NCBI GenBank assembly: GCA_021325675.1
Contig: JAJTCM010000004.1
Location: 128,794-192,793 of the forward strand
Direction: 5' to 3'
Source: Crocinitomicaceae bacterium
GTDB taxonomy: Bacteria; Bacteroidota; Bacteroidia; Flavobacteriales_D; Crocinitomicaceae
DNA: 64,000 nt
This document shows, piece after piece, positions 20,917 to 31,508 of the stretch; positions within the stretch are counted from its first letter, which is position 1; the number at the start of each line of letters is the position of its first letter. The position numbers were made by a program, and so were the translations under genes. The notes under the pieces were generated by a model. That model did no database searches, had not been told where the DNA came from, and saw only the letters and a program-made list of their open reading frames with translations.

Positions 20917-21240
20917 CTAATATTTCTGTACCCGGTAAGTCTTGAAAATGCCTTTGATTTCGAGGATCAGCAGGTAAAATCCCGGTTCTTCATCGATAAG
21001 CGAGATCACCTGTGTATTGCTTTTGCTTTCCTGGACCTTTTGTCCGCTCATATTGAACAGCTGATATGATGTCACATCCTCCCCATTGCGTACCAGCAGG
21101 ATTTCACTCGTAGGGTTTGGGATCACTTTCACAGCGTTGAAAACCTCGTCGTAAGCGGGGATACTGTCACTTTCGCTGATTTCCTGGCCGAATGCTGCTG
21201 TTGTTAAGGTCAGGCCCAGGGCGGCAATTATTGTTCTCAT
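20917..21240 (-). CDS. Mini-protein: signal peptide plus T9SS C-terminal sorting domain
   Basis: A 107-residue product. Residues 1-18 are a signal peptide (AAFGQ). From about 38 the rest is a type A T9SS sorting domain: VKVIPNPTSEILLVRNG, then YQLFNMSGQKVQES and GFYLLILEIKG, with the final RVQKY. Between them is only a linker of about 20 residues, so there is no cargo domain. It could be a secreted peptide carrier, a relic of a larger cargo protein, or a decoy for the machinery. There is no visible 5' fragment of a larger protein in the adjacent sequence. Confidence 0.8.
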   Translation of the reverse strand: MRTIIAALGLTLTTAAFGQEISESDSIPAYDEVFNAVKVIPNPTSEILLVRNGEDVTSYQLFNMSGQKVQESKSNTQVISLIDEEPGFYLLILEIKGIFKTYRVQKY

Positions 21241-21292
21241 GGCTTTTTTAGCTATAACCGCACAATTTTACATTCGTTACACGAAATAATTT

Positions 21293-21323: not shown

Positions 21324-21677
21324 ATGGCTACGATCAAACTGAGTGAAAAAAACAAAGACTTTTTTGAAAATGTATATGCTGTAGTTCGCGAAATACCGGA
21401 GGGACGCGTAACAAGCTATGGTGCAATTGCAGCTTTTCTGGGGGCAAAACGTTCGAGCAGAATGGTAGGCTGGGCGATGCACGGAGCTGGTTCCATGCCT
21501 GAGGTCCCTGCTCACCGGGTCGTTAACCGTAACGGCTACCTGACAGGAAAAGGCCATTTTAACGACCCGGATGAGATGGAGCTGAAACTGAAAGCCGAGG
21601 GCATTCAGGTAACAGATGATCGAGTAGTAGATTTTAATGTTGTATTCTGGGATCCGGCTACAGCGTTAAGCTTATAA
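21324..21677 (+). CDS. Alkyltransferase-like protein (ATL), MGMT fold without catalytic Cys
   Basis: A 117-residue protein of the MGMT C-terminal domain type. The helix-turn-helix and arginine finger region (VTSYGAIAAFLGAKRSSRMVGWAM) is intact, but the active-site PCHRV is VPAHRVVNRNG, with Ala63 in place of the cysteine. Such proteins bind O6-alkylguanine without repairing it and direct the lesion to nucleotide excision repair. The role is known for the family; here it is inferred. It is convergent with a small lipoprotein gene, 6 bases apart. Confidence 0.88.
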   Translation: MATIKLSEKNKDFFENVYAVVREIPEGRVTSYGAIAAFLGAKRSSRMVGWAMHGAGSMPEVPAHRVVNRNGYLTGKGHFNDPDEMELKLKAEGIQVTDDRVVDFNVVFWDPATALSL

Positions 21678-21683
21678 CTTTTC

Positions 21684-21935
21684 CTAGTTTCTCCATAGTT
21701 CTTTCAAAAACAGCTCTTCGTTTCCTGAAATTGCCGCCTGGATCCTGATCTCTTTTTCAAGATCGCTCAACGCTGCCTTTAAGCCAGGGTTTTTGGATTC
21801 AGTCAGAATGTTCTGGATTTCAGTATGTTTTTTCTTTAATTCAATCGCTTTTGCCATGCGCTCGGAATATTCCGACTGGCATGATTGCAAACCTAACCCG
21901 ATGAAAATTGCTGTTATAAAGACTAAACTTTTCAT
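21684..21935 (-). CDS. Small lipoprotein of unknown function
   Basis: From the ATG at 21935 the 83-residue product has a lipoprotein signal (MKSLVFITAIFIGLGLQSC). The mature part is helical and charged (RMAKAIELKKKHTEIQNIL and similar heptads). An open frame extends upstream to 22025 but adds residues before the signal. The family is not recognised. Confidence 0.6.
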   Translation of the reverse strand: MKSLVFITAIFIGLGLQSCQSEYSERMAKAIELKKKHTEIQNILTESKNPGLKAALSDLEKEIRIQAAISGNEELFLKELWRN

Positions 21936-25068: not shown

Positions 25069-26100
25069 TTAGAAATGCCAAACGTCGTGTTCGATGTTAC
25101 GGATTTCTTCAGTAATCTTATTGGATTCCATCAAGGCATCAACCCCGTTTTTGTAAGAGTCGATCTTACGCTCAAAAACGTTGCTTTCACGGTAAATGTA
25201 GCTGGAGAAGATCCGTTTCCAGAACAGATCGTCGAAGCTCATCCATTGTGCGTCGTTTTTGGAATTGTACGTAAAATAGTTGTTGAATACGAAACGGCAG
25301 TGTGGGAAGTATAACCAGAATAACTCTTTGTATTTACCACCTTCTTTGGTTTTTTCGTAAATCACCGGGCAAATCCCCAGGATACGAACGTCCATCACGG
25401 AACGCTCTTTGTCAAAGAACCAGTCTTCTTTCAATTCGTAAGCAACGATATCCTTGGAAAGGATCTTTTCATAGATTTTTTCCTCTACCGGCTCAGGACG
25501 CATCTCATCACCTGTGATCGGGTCATAAGCTACGGAGTCTTCACCGTTGACACCTTTTACCGGAACGAGACGTGCTTCAACGAATACGGAGATGTACTCG
25601 TCCACTTTGTTACGGTAAAGAGAATCTGTAAAGTAGTTTTTACCAACTCCCGGGCGGATTGGATATTTGAACTGGTCACCGTCCAACGTTCCGTTCTGAA
25701 ATAAATCATACGGGTTGTAAGGGGAGAACATGATCAAATCACCGTTCATAATGTGATGTTTCATCACCGTGTACAAACTCCAGCGGGAGGTGTTACGCAC
25801 CCATTCCTCATTTTGATCGTCGATCTTTTGGTAAGTATCGAACGGAAAATAAAGCGGGTGGTTAATTTTTTCGCGTAAATCAATGGTACGCCAAACACGT
25901 TTACTCCAGATTACATCCGCTTCTCTTACAAATTCATAAGGAATCAAGCGTTTTGTCGGAACGTGTTCTTTAATGTAGACCCCGTCAATGATGTTCTCAG
26001 ATGGAACGTTGATAGGCCCTCCATTAATTTCCGGTCCTTGCTGGGCAGCCACCGTACCGGCAGATGCGAAAACCAACAGACTAACAATTAACTTTTTCAT
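25069..26100 (-). CDS. gldN: Type IX secretion/gliding protein GldN
   Basis: A 343-residue periplasmic protein with a signal peptide from the ATG at 26100 (MKKLIVSLLVFASAGTVAAQ); the longer frame to 26160 is rejected because it adds residues before the signal. Family segments include IKEHVPTKRLIPYEFVREADV, SKRVWRTIDLREKINHP and the late WMSFDDLFWKRIF. GldN (PorN) forms the periplasmic ring with GldK. It follows gldM after 119 bases, with a hairpin between. Confidence 0.93.
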   Translation of the reverse strand: MKKLIVSLLVFASAGTVAAQQGPEINGGPINVPSENIIDGVYIKEHVPTKRLIPYEFVREADVIWSKRVWRTIDLREKINHPLYFPFDTYQKIDDQNEEWVRNTSRWSLYTVMKHHIMNGDLIMFSPYNPYDLFQNGTLDGDQFKYPIRPGVGKNYFTDSLYRNKVDEYISVFVEARLVPVKGVNGEDSVAYDPITGDEMRPEPVEEKIYEKILSKDIVAYELKEDWFFDKERSVMDVRILGICPVIYEKTKEGGKYKELFWLYFPHCRFVFNNYFTYNSKNDAQWMSFDDLFWKRIFSSYIYRESNVFERKIDSYKNGVDALMESNKITEEIRNIEHDVWHF

Positions 26101-26186
26101 TTCACTTATTTTTAAATTTTTGCAAGAAATAACCGGATCACTTATTTCAAACGTTTTCAACTCAAATTCTCTACACTATTTGTAAA

Positions 26187-26210
26187 ACCGGGCTACCGAA
26201 GCAACCCGGT
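26187..26210 (-). terminator. Hairpin between gldM and gldN, possible attenuator
   Basis: A stem ACCGGG/CCCGGT with a 12-base loop lies 10 bases after the gldM stop and 87 bases before gldN. On the minus strand it is followed by TTTTAC, a weak U-run, so part of the transcripts may stop or be processed here. Confidence 0.4.
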
Positions 26211-26219
26211 CTTTTTACT

Positions 26220-27956
26220 TTATATTTTAAATGTCGATGACGATGTCCTGTTGTTTGCACCTGTACCGGAGTAAACGCAGGAGAAAGACACCATGGAGCC
26301 TGGCTTGGCCTGGCTGATAAACATCATTGCTTCCTGAGTGAGCTGGTCACCTGATCCGGATACCGGTCTTGGCGCACCTGTGATACTCATGATCCACTTC
26401 GTTACTTTAAAGGAAGCTTTCAATGGAATACCCTCGTCAAATTTAGCATACAATGTTTTAGCTGTTTTGCTGGTTACTTTGTCACCGTCAGCAGCTTGTC
26501 CCCAGAAGATTTTCGCACCTGGCATAGGCTTCACATCGAATGTGTAAGAACCTAAGCTTACCGTTTTCTTGGATACAGGGTTGTAACCGGAAATGGTAAT
26601 AGTTGCTGTTTTTCCTCCGCCCGGAGTACCAATGTACTGCTTGCCGGATTTAGTCAATGTTACGTTTGAACCGGACAGCTTAGTTTCAGGGTAACCGGAA
26701 GCTACACCTTCAACAACGTTTTTGTAACCACGGTACAGAACGAGCATTTCCGGGAGGGAAACAGTTCCTTCTGGCTTCATGATCTTGATCGTTTTGCTGT
26801 AGTTCATCGTTTTCGGAACCCCGGATTTGTTCAGGATTGTAATCGAACCTGTCAATTCCATATCGGAGTTACCGGAAGCTTTCAGCGTTACGTAACCTTT
26901 ACCGTCTTTTGTTTCTTTCAATGAACCCTGGTTAGGCTTCACGATCGGCTGCTTGTCTGAGTCATACGCCGCCATCAATACTTCCAGTGTGATTTCGTCA
27001 CCGCTGTTAGCAATATCCGGACCGTAAGCCAAAGGCATGATCTTGTTGAAAGAGTACTCACCACCACCAACACGGGAGCGGATGAGGGAAACTGCGTCAG
27101 CACGTGCAGTCAGGATTTCTTTCTGCAATGAAGACAAAGAGGCAAGCGCCGCTACGGAAGGAGAGTGGTCAAAAGTACGTCCAATCCAGTGTACGTCTTT
27201 GATTTCACCTTCGTGCATGTCGCCACGCTCTTGTTTCGTCAGGGAAGAGTAAATTTTCTTCAAAGCTTCCTGGTCATCCGGAGCTACATCTTTCATGGCT
27301 TTATCCAACTGTGTGTTGATGTCCTTGAAATCTTTGTACTTAGTGATGTTCGGATCCTTGAATTTGTACTTTTTCTCTGGTGTGGAAGAAGACTCAGCGA
27401 TCAGCTCAGTCAAATCCTTACGGTACTTCATGTAACCGTCCCAAAGCTCTTTTCCTTTTCCTTTCGGTTCTTTGATATCATCAGCAATACCCATAACGAG
27501 CATCGGCTCATCATATTTATCTTTACCATCCACTTTCATCAGGTTCATACGAGCCGGTCTGAGTGGTTCTTTGGTGCTGTAAGGGATTTTGATCAAAAAT
27601 TCTTCACCTGTTTGTTCAACGTTCTCACCACAAGTTTTCAAAATCTCGATTTTCAGATCATCGATGAATTTTACTTGCTTAGCAGTCATATCGTCAATCT
27701 TCTTAACGTATTCCATTAATTTGATTGCTTTTTTCTGAACATCCGGTGTGGATTTATCTTCAGCAACTTCCTTAAGGTCGAGCTTTTTCTCTTCACCCCG
27801 GCCATATTCGTTGATGTTGGAAATCTGAATGTTTTCCTCAATTGCAACGAAAGCGTCCAGAATGGCTTTTGATACGTTAAGCGCAAGAAGAGCGGTAAGT
27901 ACAAGGTACATCATACCGATCATCTTCTGTCTGGGGGTTTCTTTTCCTCCTGCCAT
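26220..27956 (-). CDS. gldM: Type IX secretion/gliding protein GldM
   Basis: A 578-residue inner-membrane protein with a short cytoplasmic start (MAGGKETPRQKMIGMMYLV), one transmembrane helix (about 13-33) and a long periplasmic part that spans to the GldKN ring. GldM works with GldL as the proton-driven motor. It is about 60 residues longer than the Flavobacterium and Porphyromonas proteins I know (about 515), the extra length being somewhere in the first periplasmic domains. Neighbours are gldL upstream and gldN downstream. Confidence 0.94.
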   Translation of the reverse strand: MAGGKETPRQKMIGMMYLVLTALLALNVSKAILDAFVAIEENIQISNINEYGRGEEKKLDLKEVAEDKSTPDVQKKAIKLMEYVKKIDDMTAKQVKFIDDLKIEILKTCGENVEQTGEEFLIKIPYSTKEPLRPARMNLMKVDGKDKYDEPMLVMGIADDIKEPKGKGKELWDGYMKYRKDLTELIAESSSTPEKKYKFKDPNITKYKDFKDINTQLDKAMKDVAPDDQEALKKIYSSLTKQERGDMHEGEIKDVHWIGRTFDHSPSVAALASLSSLQKEILTARADAVSLIRSRVGGGEYSFNKIMPLAYGPDIANSGDEITLEVLMAAYDSDKQPIVKPNQGSLKETKDGKGYVTLKASGNSDMELTGSITILNKSGVPKTMNYSKTIKIMKPEGTVSLPEMLVLYRGYKNVVEGVASGYPETKLSGSNVTLTKSGKQYIGTPGGGKTATITISGYNPVSKKTVSLGSYTFDVKPMPGAKIFWGQAADGDKVTSKTAKTLYAKFDEGIPLKASFKVTKWIMSITGAPRPVSGSGDQLTQEAMMFISQAKPGSMVSFSCVYSGTGANNRTSSSTFKI

Positions 27957-28010
27957 GATTAATTAATTTTTCCTGGTTTATAACTGTTTAATTATTCAAT
28001 CAAGCGCTTA

Positions 28011-28826
28011 TTAGTCTCTCGAAACTGTCATTGCTTTTAACATGTTGCCGTAAACCGTGTTCAAATCTGTCAGGTTACGGGACAACATTGCCATATTTTC
28101 TTTGTAAAGTCTTGTATCTTCTGCGGAATCAGAAAGGTTCTGCATCATTTCAGTTACCTGCGACTGGAATTTCTCAGTAGCTTCCAAATGAGCGGAAGAA
28201 CCTTTCAATTGCAGTTCGTATACGTTGTTCAACGCAGCGAGGTTTTTAGAAACTTTTTGCATTTGCTCACCGAATGATTCGCCTTCACCTGCAGTTGAAG
28301 TCATACCTGAGATAGATACAGATGCTCTTTCGTAAGCTTCAGACAAAGCTGAAACACGGTCTGATGCAGCTTGTAAGCTGGAAACATAAGAATCTGTTGC
28401 AGCTGCAGCAGTACTTACTTCTTTCAATTGAGCAGCATTGTCTCCCAACGCTCTCATTCCATCACCCAGTCTTTCTAATAATTGACCGTCAATTTTCGCC
28501 TCTTCCAACATTTTGTCGAGTTGGTCAGTAATTCCTGAACCACCATGACGGTTGCTTTTTGAGGAAGCAATTGCATCGTGATCGAGGTCGTCGCTATGTC
28601 CTAATCCTAATTCAGGGTATACCAACTCCCAGTTCGGATCTTCGTGGATCGGTTCGAACGAGGAGAAGATAAAGATCAACGCCTCAGTACTTAAACCGAT
28701 AATCAACATCATCGATGCTCCTGGCCAGTGCTGAATCTTAAATAACGCACCAACAATTACGATTGCAGCTCCGAAACCGTACAGTTTCGACATAAACAAT
28801 TTCCATCCTTTACTTCCTGGTTTCAT
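28011..28826 (-). CDS. gldL: Type IX secretion/gliding motor protein GldL
   Basis: A 271-residue protein with two transmembrane helices near the N-terminus (about 14-32 and 38-55) separated by the LFKIQHWPGASM segment, and a long cytoplasmic coiled-coil-like tail. Glu49 in the second helix (STEALIF) is in the position of the conserved acidic residue thought to carry protons. GldL and GldM form the motor that powers T9SS and gliding. It lies between gldK and gldM. Confidence 0.94.
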   Translation of the reverse strand: MKPGSKGWKLFMSKLYGFGAAIVIVGALFKIQHWPGASMMLIIGLSTEALIFIFSSFEPIHEDPNWELVYPELGLGHSDDLDHDAIASSKSNRHGGSGITDQLDKMLEEAKIDGQLLERLGDGMRALGDNAAQLKEVSTAAAATDSYVSSLQAASDRVSALSEAYERASVSISGMTSTAGEGESFGEQMQKVSKNLAALNNVYELQLKGSSAHLEATEKFQSQVTEMMQNLSDSAEDTRLYKENMAMLSRNLTDLNTVYGNMLKAMTVSRD

Positions 28827-28885
28827 AGTTTTTCTGTTTTTTTAAGTTTTAAACTAATTTATTATTTTGATTTGTTTGTTGATTC

Positions 28886-30439
28886 TTAGCGAAGTTGAAT
28901 ATCGCTTTGAATTTCCTCGCTTCCTTCTTTCGCAAAGTTTTTACCTCCGCGGCCGATGTGCGTCATAACATTCCGGTAACCGATGTATGACTTAGCAGTA
29001 TCCTGGTACTCGTATGAACGAGTTGATGTCTGTAAATAATAACCGATGTCCTTCCAGGAACCTCCGCGCAGTACTTTACGCTTCATTGAAGGTGGATCCC
29101 AGTCCATCGCATCATATCTGTAATCTGTATTCAGATCATGAGAAAATTCGTACATTGATTCGTCGTAAGCAGTTTCACACCACTCGGCAACGTTTCCGGC
29201 CATACAGTAAAGACCCCAGCCGTTCGGGTTGTAAGAGTAAGCTTTCACTGTGTGGAAACCACCGTCTTCGAAGTATCTTCCGCGCATTGGCTTGAAGTTT
29301 CCTAAGAAGCAGCCTGCTTCGTTACGAATGTAAGGTCCTCCCCAAGGGTAAGCTGACTGAGCGAGATCGCCGCGTGCTGCTCTTTCCCATTCTGCTTCTG
29401 TAGGCAAACGGAAATCGTTCACATACAGGTCTCCCATTGCTTGCAGCCAGGAGTTCAGTAATTGGGTCCTCCAGATGCTGAATGCTTTCGCCTGTACCCA
29501 GGTAACACCAACAACAGGGTAGTTGTCGTAGCCCGGATGCCAGAAGTACATATTCGTCATCGGATCGTGGAACGAGTAAGTAAAGTCACGCACCCAGCAT
29601 AAAGTATCCGGATAAACGTTGATTTCCTCGTCAATGATGAAACGCTGTCTGTTTTCGTGACCGCGAATGGCGTTGTTCTGTCCTTTTTTGTTGAAACGGC
29701 CCATATCGAGATCCTGGCCCTGCGGCTCTTCCGTAAACGGATGCGTTGGGGTGTTCAGGTCACGGTGCTGGGGAACAACTTCGTTACCCTGGTTGTCATA
29801 ACCATTAGGAACGATGTCAATACGTCCTCTTCTTGCCGCTTCACGCAGGTCGATCCAGAAATATTTGTAGTTGAGCTTACGCGTATCGATTTCCCTTCTT
29901 TTGTAGAAGCGCTCCGGCTGTGTATAGTACATGTCGGCGAGCAAGGGCATCACCTCCTCGTTGTCCTGGTCTGAGTAGCTAAACTCACGGTCCCAGTTCA
30001 ATGCGAAAAGGTTACGGTTACCCGGCCTGTCGGAAGGATCAAAGTCAACAAAAGCCAGCTGGCCTTCATCGAAGTAGTGATCTTCGTAATTGATGTACTC
30101 CATCGCAGCATCGTCTTCCTGCAAGCCCAGATAGATTTTTTCACGTGCAATTGAGTCACGCACCCAGTAAACAAACTGGCGGTACTCGTTGTTCGTGATT
30201 TCCGTCTGGTCCATATAGAAAGCCTGGACTGAAACAGTTTTAGAACGGGTCTGATGCAAGAAAGGAACATCTTGATCATTTTCTCCCATGGCATACGATC
30301 CCGAAGGGATATAGACCATTCCCAAAGGAATTTCCGGTTGGTAAAGGGGCCTCCCCATTACTCCGGTCAGGTGTCCGGATCTTGATTGACAAGAAGCAAT
30401 CAATAAACCAATAAGACCTACAAACAATAGTTTTTTCAT
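28886..30439 (-). CDS. gldK: Type IX secretion/gliding lipoprotein GldK
   Basis: A 517-residue lipoprotein (lipobox IASC, Cys17) with a formylglycine-generating-enzyme-like domain (about 40-490): GMVYIPSGSYAMGENDQDVP at the start, YPVVGVTWVQAKAF in the middle and RGGSWKDIGYYLQTS near the end. GldK (PorK) forms the periplasmic ring with GldN under the outer membrane. The gene begins the gldKLMN run and follows a PorP/SprF gene after 109 bases. Confidence 0.95.
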   Translation of the reverse strand: MKKLLFVGLIGLLIASCQSRSGHLTGVMGRPLYQPEIPLGMVYIPSGSYAMGENDQDVPFLHQTRSKTVSVQAFYMDQTEITNNEYRQFVYWVRDSIAREKIYLGLQEDDAAMEYINYEDHYFDEGQLAFVDFDPSDRPGNRNLFALNWDREFSYSDQDNEEVMPLLADMYYTQPERFYKRREIDTRKLNYKYFWIDLREAARRGRIDIVPNGYDNQGNEVVPQHRDLNTPTHPFTEEPQGQDLDMGRFNKKGQNNAIRGHENRQRFIIDEEINVYPDTLCWVRDFTYSFHDPMTNMYFWHPGYDNYPVVGVTWVQAKAFSIWRTQLLNSWLQAMGDLYVNDFRLPTEAEWERAARGDLAQSAYPWGGPYIRNEAGCFLGNFKPMRGRYFEDGGFHTVKAYSYNPNGWGLYCMAGNVAEWCETAYDESMYEFSHDLNTDYRYDAMDWDPPSMKRKVLRGGSWKDIGYYLQTSTRSYEYQDTAKSYIGYRNVMTHIGRGGKNFAKEGSEEIQSDIQLR

Positions 30440-30548
30440 TCTACCTTAATTTTACTTTCCGGATACCAATTTTAACATGCTACAGGATCAATTTCTTGAT
30501 ATAACGGAATTCTGCTTTGAATAGTTACAATTATTTAACAAATAAATT

Positions 30549-31508
30549 TTATAACCATCTCGGGTGTTTTGCTTTTTGCACCGGTGGCGGTGGAATTTGT
30601 TTAATGTAACGCAACACGATCTCGTGTGAGCCTTTAGAGATGTCTCTCAGCTTGTTCAGGGTCATGTCGTAGGAGTATCCTACAGTTAACGGACCTTGAA
30701 CATAACCGACCATCAGGCCCGCACCGTCGCTTACACGGTAGGTGATACCTCCGTATACCTGCGTGTTGTTGGTTGCATTGAGCGTATGTAAGTATCTTGC
30801 GTTGATTTCTGCGGAGTATTTAACCATATCGGTACGGCCAAGCATCTGGAAATCGAGGCTTTTGCCTTCACCGAATATGTCAAACATAGTGTAACCACCC
30901 ATGAGGAACATGTGTCTCGCGTTCGAGTAGTTCACGTTTTTGATTTCTGCCTGGGTAATGTGTGTTGCAGAGAAACCGATGTAATATGGTCTCATTGCAT
31001 TTTTATTTCCTCTCCAGAATAAACCGAAGTTCAGGTCCATGGCGCCTCCCGATGTTGCAATCGGTAAAAGCTTGTCGTCCAGTGTTGTAGGTGGAACCCA
31101 TTGCGGATCGAAGCCAATGTTCACTAAACCAAGGCCAATACCTGCACCGAGGATACCCTGGTGCTCGCCTCCAACCTGAAGGGGAATATGTAAGCTATAG
31201 TTTAACAAGAGGTTATTTTGTTTCATCTCACCGATCGCATCGTGGTAGAAAGAAAGGCCTGCGCCACCTGTAAACACACGGTCAAGGTTGCCCTCGAGGT
31301 TGAATAAAAGTGAGTTAGGAGCCCCGTTTACCTTGTCCCATTGGTTACGGTAGATCATTGTCGCCCCGATACCAGCGTCCAAACCGGTTGAGCCCGGGTT
31401 GATGGACATCTTATCGTAGATAAAGTGCGTTAATAATTTCTCCTGTTGGGCCACTGCACTAGCAGCGAGAAGCATAAAAGTTGAAATAGTAAATATACTT
31501 TTTTTCAT
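30549..31508 (-). CDS. PorP/SprF family type IX secretion membrane protein
   Basis: A 319-residue outer-membrane protein with a signal peptide (SAVAQ). The start of the mature protein, LLTHFIYDKMSINPGSTG, and the stretch MIYRNQWDKVNGAPNSLLFN identify the PorP/SprF family, which anchors or exports T9SS substrates such as SprB-type adhesins. Its place directly upstream of gldK is the usual one. The C-terminus is short and basic (PPPPVQKAKHPRWL). The 224-base region upstream (31509-31732) has no gene and no clear TAnnTTTG box. Confidence 0.93.
   Translation of the reverse strand: MKKSIFTISTFMLLAASAVAQQEKLLTHFIYDKMSINPGSTGLDAGIGATMIYRNQWDKVNGAPNSLLFNLEGNLDRVFTGGAGLSFYHDAIGEMKQNNLLLNYSLHIPLQVGGEHQGILGAGIGLGLVNIGFDPQWVPPTTLDDKLLPIATSGGAMDLNFGLFWRGNKNAMRPYYIGFSATHITQAEIKNVNYSNARHMFLMGGYTMFDIFGEGKSLDFQMLGRTDMVKYSAEINARYLHTLNATNNTQVYGGITYRVSDGAGLMVGYVQGPLTVGYSYDMTLNKLRDISKGSHEIVLRYIKQIPPPPVQKAKHPRWL

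Follow-up and report, generated by a model that had tools for sequence, protein, structure and literature searches.

A conserved stand-alone type A sorting-domain protein of the Crocinitomicaceae with a promoter-like element of the gldKLMN kind

The gene at 20917..21240 on the minus strand of the window (the whole 64,000-nucleotide stretch of DNA that was analysed) encodes a 107-residue stand-alone T9SS type A sorting-domain protein, called mini-CTD here, which is kept intact in related genomes and carries a promoter-like element of the kind found before gldKLMN. Because of this element a role tied to the machine is favoured, and the preferred reading of the sequences, held tentatively, is that mini-CTD, as a CTD-only protein, may serve the T9SS as an accessory or regulatory ligand, lie in the regulon of the machine and follow a logic like that of PorA. 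The main rival reading is that of a small secreted product, and the two cannot be told apart by sequence alone. The usual view of a sorting domain is that of an address label, cut off once export is complete. If the preferred reading is true, mini-CTD, a parcel-less label that is single-copy and has a gldKLMN-type promoter-like element, would show that such a tag can do work of its own.

The assignment of the gene (stop codon included) is based on profile matches and orthologues, and its product (MRTII...QKY, 107 residues) is read from a minus-strand frame; the earlier note on this DNA gave no strand. That note described a signal peptide, about 20 linker residues and a type A sorting domain, an architecture borne out by the profiles and a structural model, with the signal peptide read by eye. 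The putative Sec-type signal peptide (residues 1-18, 21187..21240, minus strand), read by eye, ends in AAFG with cleavage before Q19, and Q19 is invariant across 18 aligned orthologues. The linker (residues 19-38, 21127..21186, minus strand) is the sole possible cargo, 20 residues with low model confidence to about residue 30. The type A CTD (residues 39-107, 20920..21126, minus strand) is identified by profile, model and fold matches: residues 39-104 score 33.4 bits with TIGR04183 (cut-off 23) and residues 40-96 score 28 bits with PF18962 (cut-off 27), both over cut-off. The one g11 orthologue tested scores 21.5 bits with TIGR04183 (cut-off 23) and 28.8 bits with PF18962 (cut-off 27). From the Q to three residues before the PNP motif there are 20 residues in the window protein and 15-20 in the 19 orthologues measured, and the CTD after the linker has 69-70 residues in all of these proteins. 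Some linker of this length thus always remains, as would be expected if the linker itself were the true cargo and, once the CTD is cut off, were displayed or released as a short peptide. This is very unlikely, however, as no motif is common between genera, the length varies, and the pre-CTD part changes faster than the CTD in most of the eight close pairs that show changes (but not in G003/G001 and G052/G077, in which the rate is about equal or lower).

With 18 orthologues as input, AlphaFold2 models mini-CTD at a mean pLDDT of 79.6; confidence is high from residue 31 onwards (block means 82-95) and low in the residues ahead of it (49-53). The strands at residues 38-106 form a predicted seven-stranded Ig-like sandwich as in solved CTDs. 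Foldseek ranks first the NucA CTD bound in the T9SS translocon (8glk_D, E 6.7e-4), to which VIA-align fits the model with Z 9.4 and an rmsd of 2.0 over 71 aligned residues; the CTDs of RemZ (Z 9.3) and FspA (Z 8.3), likewise solved in the translocon, and PorZ (Z 7.3) also match, while the best unrelated Ig-like fold reaches Z 7.1. Cargo CTDs (NucA, RemZ, FspA, RgpB) have the same profile and fold as mini-CTD, but they are tags on cargo. In mini-CTD the sorting domain makes up almost all of the mature protein, and it is under stronger constraint than most cargo CTDs are. An equivalence of K106 with the PorV-contacting Lys1110 of RemZ was considered and dropped, as the chain ranges place residue 1110 fifth from the end and K106 second. 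When the position of this lysine is matched by counting from the C-terminus only, it is Arg or Lys in ten g1, g15, and g19 proteins and Asn or Ser in nine g11 proteins. As judged from their sequences, the g11 orthologues are drifting from the canonical tag.

Solved DUF3244 (PF11589) proteins of Bacteroides, which are small, secreted, and stand-alone, match the model equally closely (4g5a, Z 9.2; 3d33, Z 9.1; 3sd2, Z 8.8), and the PF11589 profile itself has no match to the window protein at E <= 1. The Bacteroides with these proteins are not known to have a T9SS. That stand-alone proteins fit the model as well as true CTDs bears on the rival already named: the folded CTD or the whole mature protein could be a small product useful at the surface or in the medium, with the sorting fold serving as a small Ig-like module, a reading that is possible though somewhat doubtful. 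Both the DUF3244 proteins and Fjoh_0547 of F. johnsoniae may use the fold in this way. Fjoh_0547 is described in PMC7712824, citing Lauber et al., as a 112-aa CTD protein present in supernatants even of sprA and porV mutants; its release into the medium is thus reported to need neither SprA nor PorV. Known here by that description, it is a small CTD-containing protein near mini-CTD in size; mini-CTD is a variant within these already known small CTD proteins and bears on the unexplained Fjoh_0547. In the open-access literature searched, no paper on stand-alone CTD genes was found besides this remark, and the word orphan is applied in PMC12618676 to Type B CTDs without a linked shuttle gene. The drifting g11 branch also favours a secreted product, but such a product alone leaves unexplained the element common to gldKLMN, which is rare before ordinary cargo genes.

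Short full-length relatives of mini-CTD were found in a first search of 40 related genomes. A profile of 18 orthologues searched against 240 genomes of the family gives 24 full-length orthologues at 120-149 bits, one per genome at E <= 1e-16 and none with internal stops; they occur in four of the five g1 genomes seen, 14 g11 genomes, five g15 genomes, and one g19 genome. The gene is absent from the g1 congener G004 in this search and is therefore dispensable. The next matches to the profile, at 63 bits, are CTDs inside frames of 541-638 aa, and a recent origin from one long cargo family was rejected since no longer protein comes nearer to the profile than this. In eight close pairs dN/dS (Nei-Gojobori) is 0.027-0.062, and dN is zero in a ninth; distant pairs (dN/dS up to 0.88, dS saturated) were left out. 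These sequences indicate that mini-CTD is under strong purifying selection. That the frame is open by chance is excluded by its 24 orthologues in 240 genomes, by the lack of internal stops, and by the close pairs, whose dN/dS is far less than 1. 

As a control for CTD constraint, orthologous pairs of ordinary cargo proteins were compared over their C-terminal 70 residues. Between G018 and G052 mini-CTD has a dN of 0.027, and the 18 cargo CTD pairs have a median of 0.069 (g15 control; 20 pairs fetched, with pair 0 omitted because of the G018 piece and L156/L176 because they are not orthologous). Between G085 and G132 it is 0.024 against a median of 0.068 in 16 cargo CTD pairs (g11 control; 18 pairs, with two dropped for a body identity under 0.6 and one with saturated dS counted as omega 0). 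The dN of mini-CTD is the third-lowest in both sets, which places it at the conserved end of the cargo range and not outside it; mini-CTD evolves as slowly as the better-conserved CTDs. The earlier note had offered a remnant as one explanation, and a larger cargo protein that decayed is indeed suggested for a different gene of this genome, mini3 (G000 C8:186983), which looks derived from a plastocyanin-CTD protein. For mini-CTD, a remnant is highly improbable: the 24 intact orthologues are about the same size, there is no longer relative, the dN/dS of close pairs is low, and the upstream element is conserved. Decayed cargo and loss of the frame were looked for in relatives and neither was seen in any of the 24 orthologues, G004 simply being without the gene; with the strongly purifying selection, this contradicts the remnant.

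The neighbourhood of mini-CTD is fixed. In all 24 orthologue loci one and the same alkyltransferase-like gene (ATL, MGMT-like; 21324..21677, plus strand, by PF01035 and synteny) lies divergent to mini-CTD, and beyond it there are usually genes for a small lipoprotein and an epimerase. In the window the small putative lipoprotein, with a CQSEY motif, lies at 21684..21935 on the minus strand (start at an internal ATG chosen by eye); it has homologues near the ATL gene, and a Pfam search of its full open reading frame gave no family. The description of the gene as an orphan is thus apt for the missing cargo but not for the genomic setting. A functional link between mini-CTD and ATL was rejected: among the 30 ATL loci viewed (56 matched) mini-CTD is present in six, so ATL does not need mini-CTD. 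A methylated-DNA-protein-cysteine methyltransferase (Mascot 59) was among the proteins immunoprecipitated with an antibody to PorA (PMC7712824, Table 1), and that the ATL neighbour shares a superfamily with this co-precipitate is probably a coincidence. Genes for a bacterial sugar transferase and/or a DegT aminotransferase are near mini-CTD in g11, G001, G002, and G003, but not in G000 (the genome of the window) or g15; such genes adjoin or lie near mini-CTD at L062:670-2459, L095, L096, and L097, and a link to surface glycans through these neighbours is possible.

The same genome has the T9SS itself. A core cluster of five minus-strand genes spans 25069-31508 of the window, a few kb from mini-CTD: a PorP/SprF-family gene (30549-31508), gldK/porK (28886..30439; TIGR03525, 570 bits, cut-off 350), gldL/porL (28011..28826; PF22827, 105 bits), gldM/porM (26220..27956; TIGR03517, 209.5 bits, cut-off 180), and gldN/porN (25069..26160; TIGR03523, 184 bits, cut-off 85.9), the true start of which may lie inside the listed open reading frame. 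A link between mini-CTD and gldKLMN by position was rejected. The cluster is a few kb away in G000 and the gldK start is 4.4 kb from mini-CTD in G002, but elsewhere the cluster is tens of kb from mini-CTD or on another contig, so the proximity is not conserved across genomes.

What mini-CTD and gldK have in common is a promoter-like element. That of mini-CTD, TGTAAC-N17-GTTAT, is at 21254..21281 on the minus strand, and the pattern match before gldK, TGTAAC-N18-GTTAT (or TGTAAC-N17-CGTTAT), is at 30501..30529 on the same strand. The word (T/C)GTAAC is present 41-49 nt before the start of all 24 mini-CTD genes (23 with TGTAAC, one with CGTAAC), although these are not 24 independent events because the promoters are related by descent. 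Any other six-letter word is common to at most 13 of the 24 upstream sequences, and the most-shared word in 200 shuffles of them to at most 12. The six columns of the word are 95-100% conserved, no column from there to the -10 region is above 66%, and a looser box follows 15-16 nt after it. This -10 box varies among the mini-CTD genes (CGTT in six of 24, [AGT]GTTA in six, NATTAT in 11, and ACTTAT in one), and the NATTAT boxes are all in g11, where gldK keeps CGTTA. The pattern TGTAAC-N15-18-GTTAT, which was derived from the mini-CTD sequences, is seen twice in the window (mini-CTD and gldK) against 0.10 expected, while TGTAAC alone is not rare (33 against 23.0 expected). TGTAAC-N16/17-CGTTA precedes gldK in 26 of the 26 readable genomes, including four without mini-CTD (28 genomes were searched; G087 has no match and G147 lacks the 5' end).

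A scoring matrix made from 17 distinct gldK elements only gives the mini-CTD element of the window a score of 15.86. A score of at least 8, a cut-off picked after the scores were known and reached by 2.9% of shuffles, is found for 24/24 mini-CTD genes and, among the ordinary cargo genes of G000, for 2/39 (40 upstream sequences fetched, L309 being cut by a contig end). Among neighbour genes it is found for 3/91, namely 2/24 ATL and 1/13 sugar transferase genes, with none among the 19 lipoprotein, 20 epimerase, 12 DMT, and three DegT genes. With the cut-off at 6 the counts are 24/24 mini-CTD against 4/39 cargo, 3/24 ATL, 2/19 lipoprotein, and 1/13 sugar transferase genes; at 10 they are 13/24 mini-CTD against 2/39 cargo and 2/24 ATL genes. 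Genome-wide, the pattern is in excess over a reversed control in G000 (19 against 9) and shows no excess in G085 (20 against 18); several of the matches fall inside genes, and other sites precede unrelated genes. A primary-sigma promoter was also considered and rejected, as the exact sequence TAnnTTTG is in none of the 24 upstream sequences (1.75 expected from shuffles).

In F. psychrophilum, T9SS genes are described as driven by a sigma-ECF motif with a CGT box (PMC9723704). Set beside the text description of this SM6-type sigma-ECF/T9SS motif, CGTT is present before 6/24 mini-CTD genes and CGTTA before 26/26 gldK genes. The mini-CTD and gldK element differs in sequence from the motif proposed for SigP in P. 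gingivalis, and rSigP is reported not to have bound upstream of porK in that species (PMC4800418). From the element, mini-CTD appears to be co-regulated with gldKLMN by a sigma-ECF factor. An ECF-type sigma factor gene at L274:1591-2163 (plus strand, G000 C8; TIGR02937, 78 bits) has the promoter-like pattern 63 nt upstream of it and is a candidate for the sigma factor of the regulon. The genome also has a PglZ-domain protein that fits PorX, with no promoter-like element found before its gene, and a further pattern site in G000 precedes a TPR/PD40 protein, truncated at the locus end, that has a weak resemblance to PorE (77.9 bits, cut-off 600).

Since the class of element is common to gldKLMN, the core operon that encodes the motor ring, mini-CTD would probably be produced when the machine is produced. 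It would then be exported by Sec, take on its type A sorting-domain fold in the periplasm, and dock at the sites used by cargo tags, the SprA translocon and the PorV shuttle. With no cargo to deliver, it could act on the machine, and its binding or export could report or tune the state of the machine by a logic comparable to that of PorA in P. gingivalis. There is precedent for CTDs that serve the machine in PorU and PorZ, T9SS components that keep their CTD, although these are large proteins with other domains, unlike mini-CTD. The earlier note had suggested a regulator of the sortase; the gldKLMN-type element favours a role tied to the machinery, but nothing points to PorU in particular.

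PorA (PGN_0123) of P. gingivalis is the closest comparison for this accessory or regulatory reading. It is a CTD protein that acts upstream of PorXY-SigP, its loss abolishes SigP, its CTD binds PorV, and it is the proposed upstream input of T9SS regulation (PMC7712824). The proposed logic of mini-CTD is comparable in that PorA is a small CTD protein tied to regulation of the T9SS and not to delivery. PorA, however, has 246 residues and a FimH-like N-terminal domain, in place of which mini-CTD has a linker of about 20 residues, so mini-CTD is not a PorA. As a single domain of 107 residues, mini-CTD would be a candidate for the input that activates T9SS regulation and is easy to test.

FlgM of flagella is an exported anti-sigma factor. 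By analogy, mini-CTD could be a reporter of secretion competence, a cargo-less tag in the sigma-ECF regulon of the machine whose export or retention would signal to the regulon whether or not the T9SS works, but this is rather unlikely. A decoy, or competitor as the earlier note put it, would instead occupy PorV and SprA sites by mass action and so limit the flux of real cargo. The complete type A CTD of mini-CTD would allow this, and at least 142 CTD places over cut-off in its genome use the machine; one gene against that many tags competes only if it is strongly expressed, and competition alone needs no orthologue kept at one locus, so that a decoy is improbable. 

The earlier note also proposed a search for other small stand-alone sorting domains and their conservation, which gives mini2, mini3, and mini4 in G000, in addition to the 24 of 240 genomes with mini-CTD. 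Contig ends aside, the CTD frames under 140 aa that pass the cut-off in the search of G000 are mini-CTD, mini2, and mini3. mini2 (L021:1911-2222, G000 C8:470786-471097, plus strand) has a signal peptide and CTD in 103 aa, with CGTAAC-N16-CGTTAA 49 nt upstream, and no short relative in 39 other genomes. mini3 (L022:1992-2339, minus strand) encodes a stand-alone CTD of 115 aa and is divergently oriented to an ECF sigma gene, with no promoter-like element found before it. Its short orthologue in G002 (L148:1492-1839, minus strand) has the same divergent ECF sigma neighbour. Longer relatives in G000, G001, and G003 contain a plastocyanin-like domain, so a CTD-only gene can arise by cargo loss. The element of mini2 and the sigma neighbour of mini3 in both genomes mean that these genes may share the reporter logic. 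mini4 (L023:1998-2357, G000 C4, minus strand) is a 119-aa CTD-like protein without the PNP motif and with a weak DUF3244 match (20.7 bits, cut-off 25); it is slightly under cut-off in the genome search and scores 23.7 as a protein (cut-off 23), and TGTAAC is 47 nt upstream of it but with no matching -10 box.

Two further observations concern other loci of the genome. The 131-aa protein at L025:1992-2387 (minus strand, G000 C8) has a CTD-like domain (PF18962, 30.1 bits) and is hydrophobic over a stretch at its N-terminus; it is perhaps a membrane-held CTD. L026 (G000 C2 end) and L027 (G000 C6 end) hold almost identical ends of large genes of the T9SS metalloprotease-like type; a frame is broken nearby, and the assembly is likely to have broken within a gene family.
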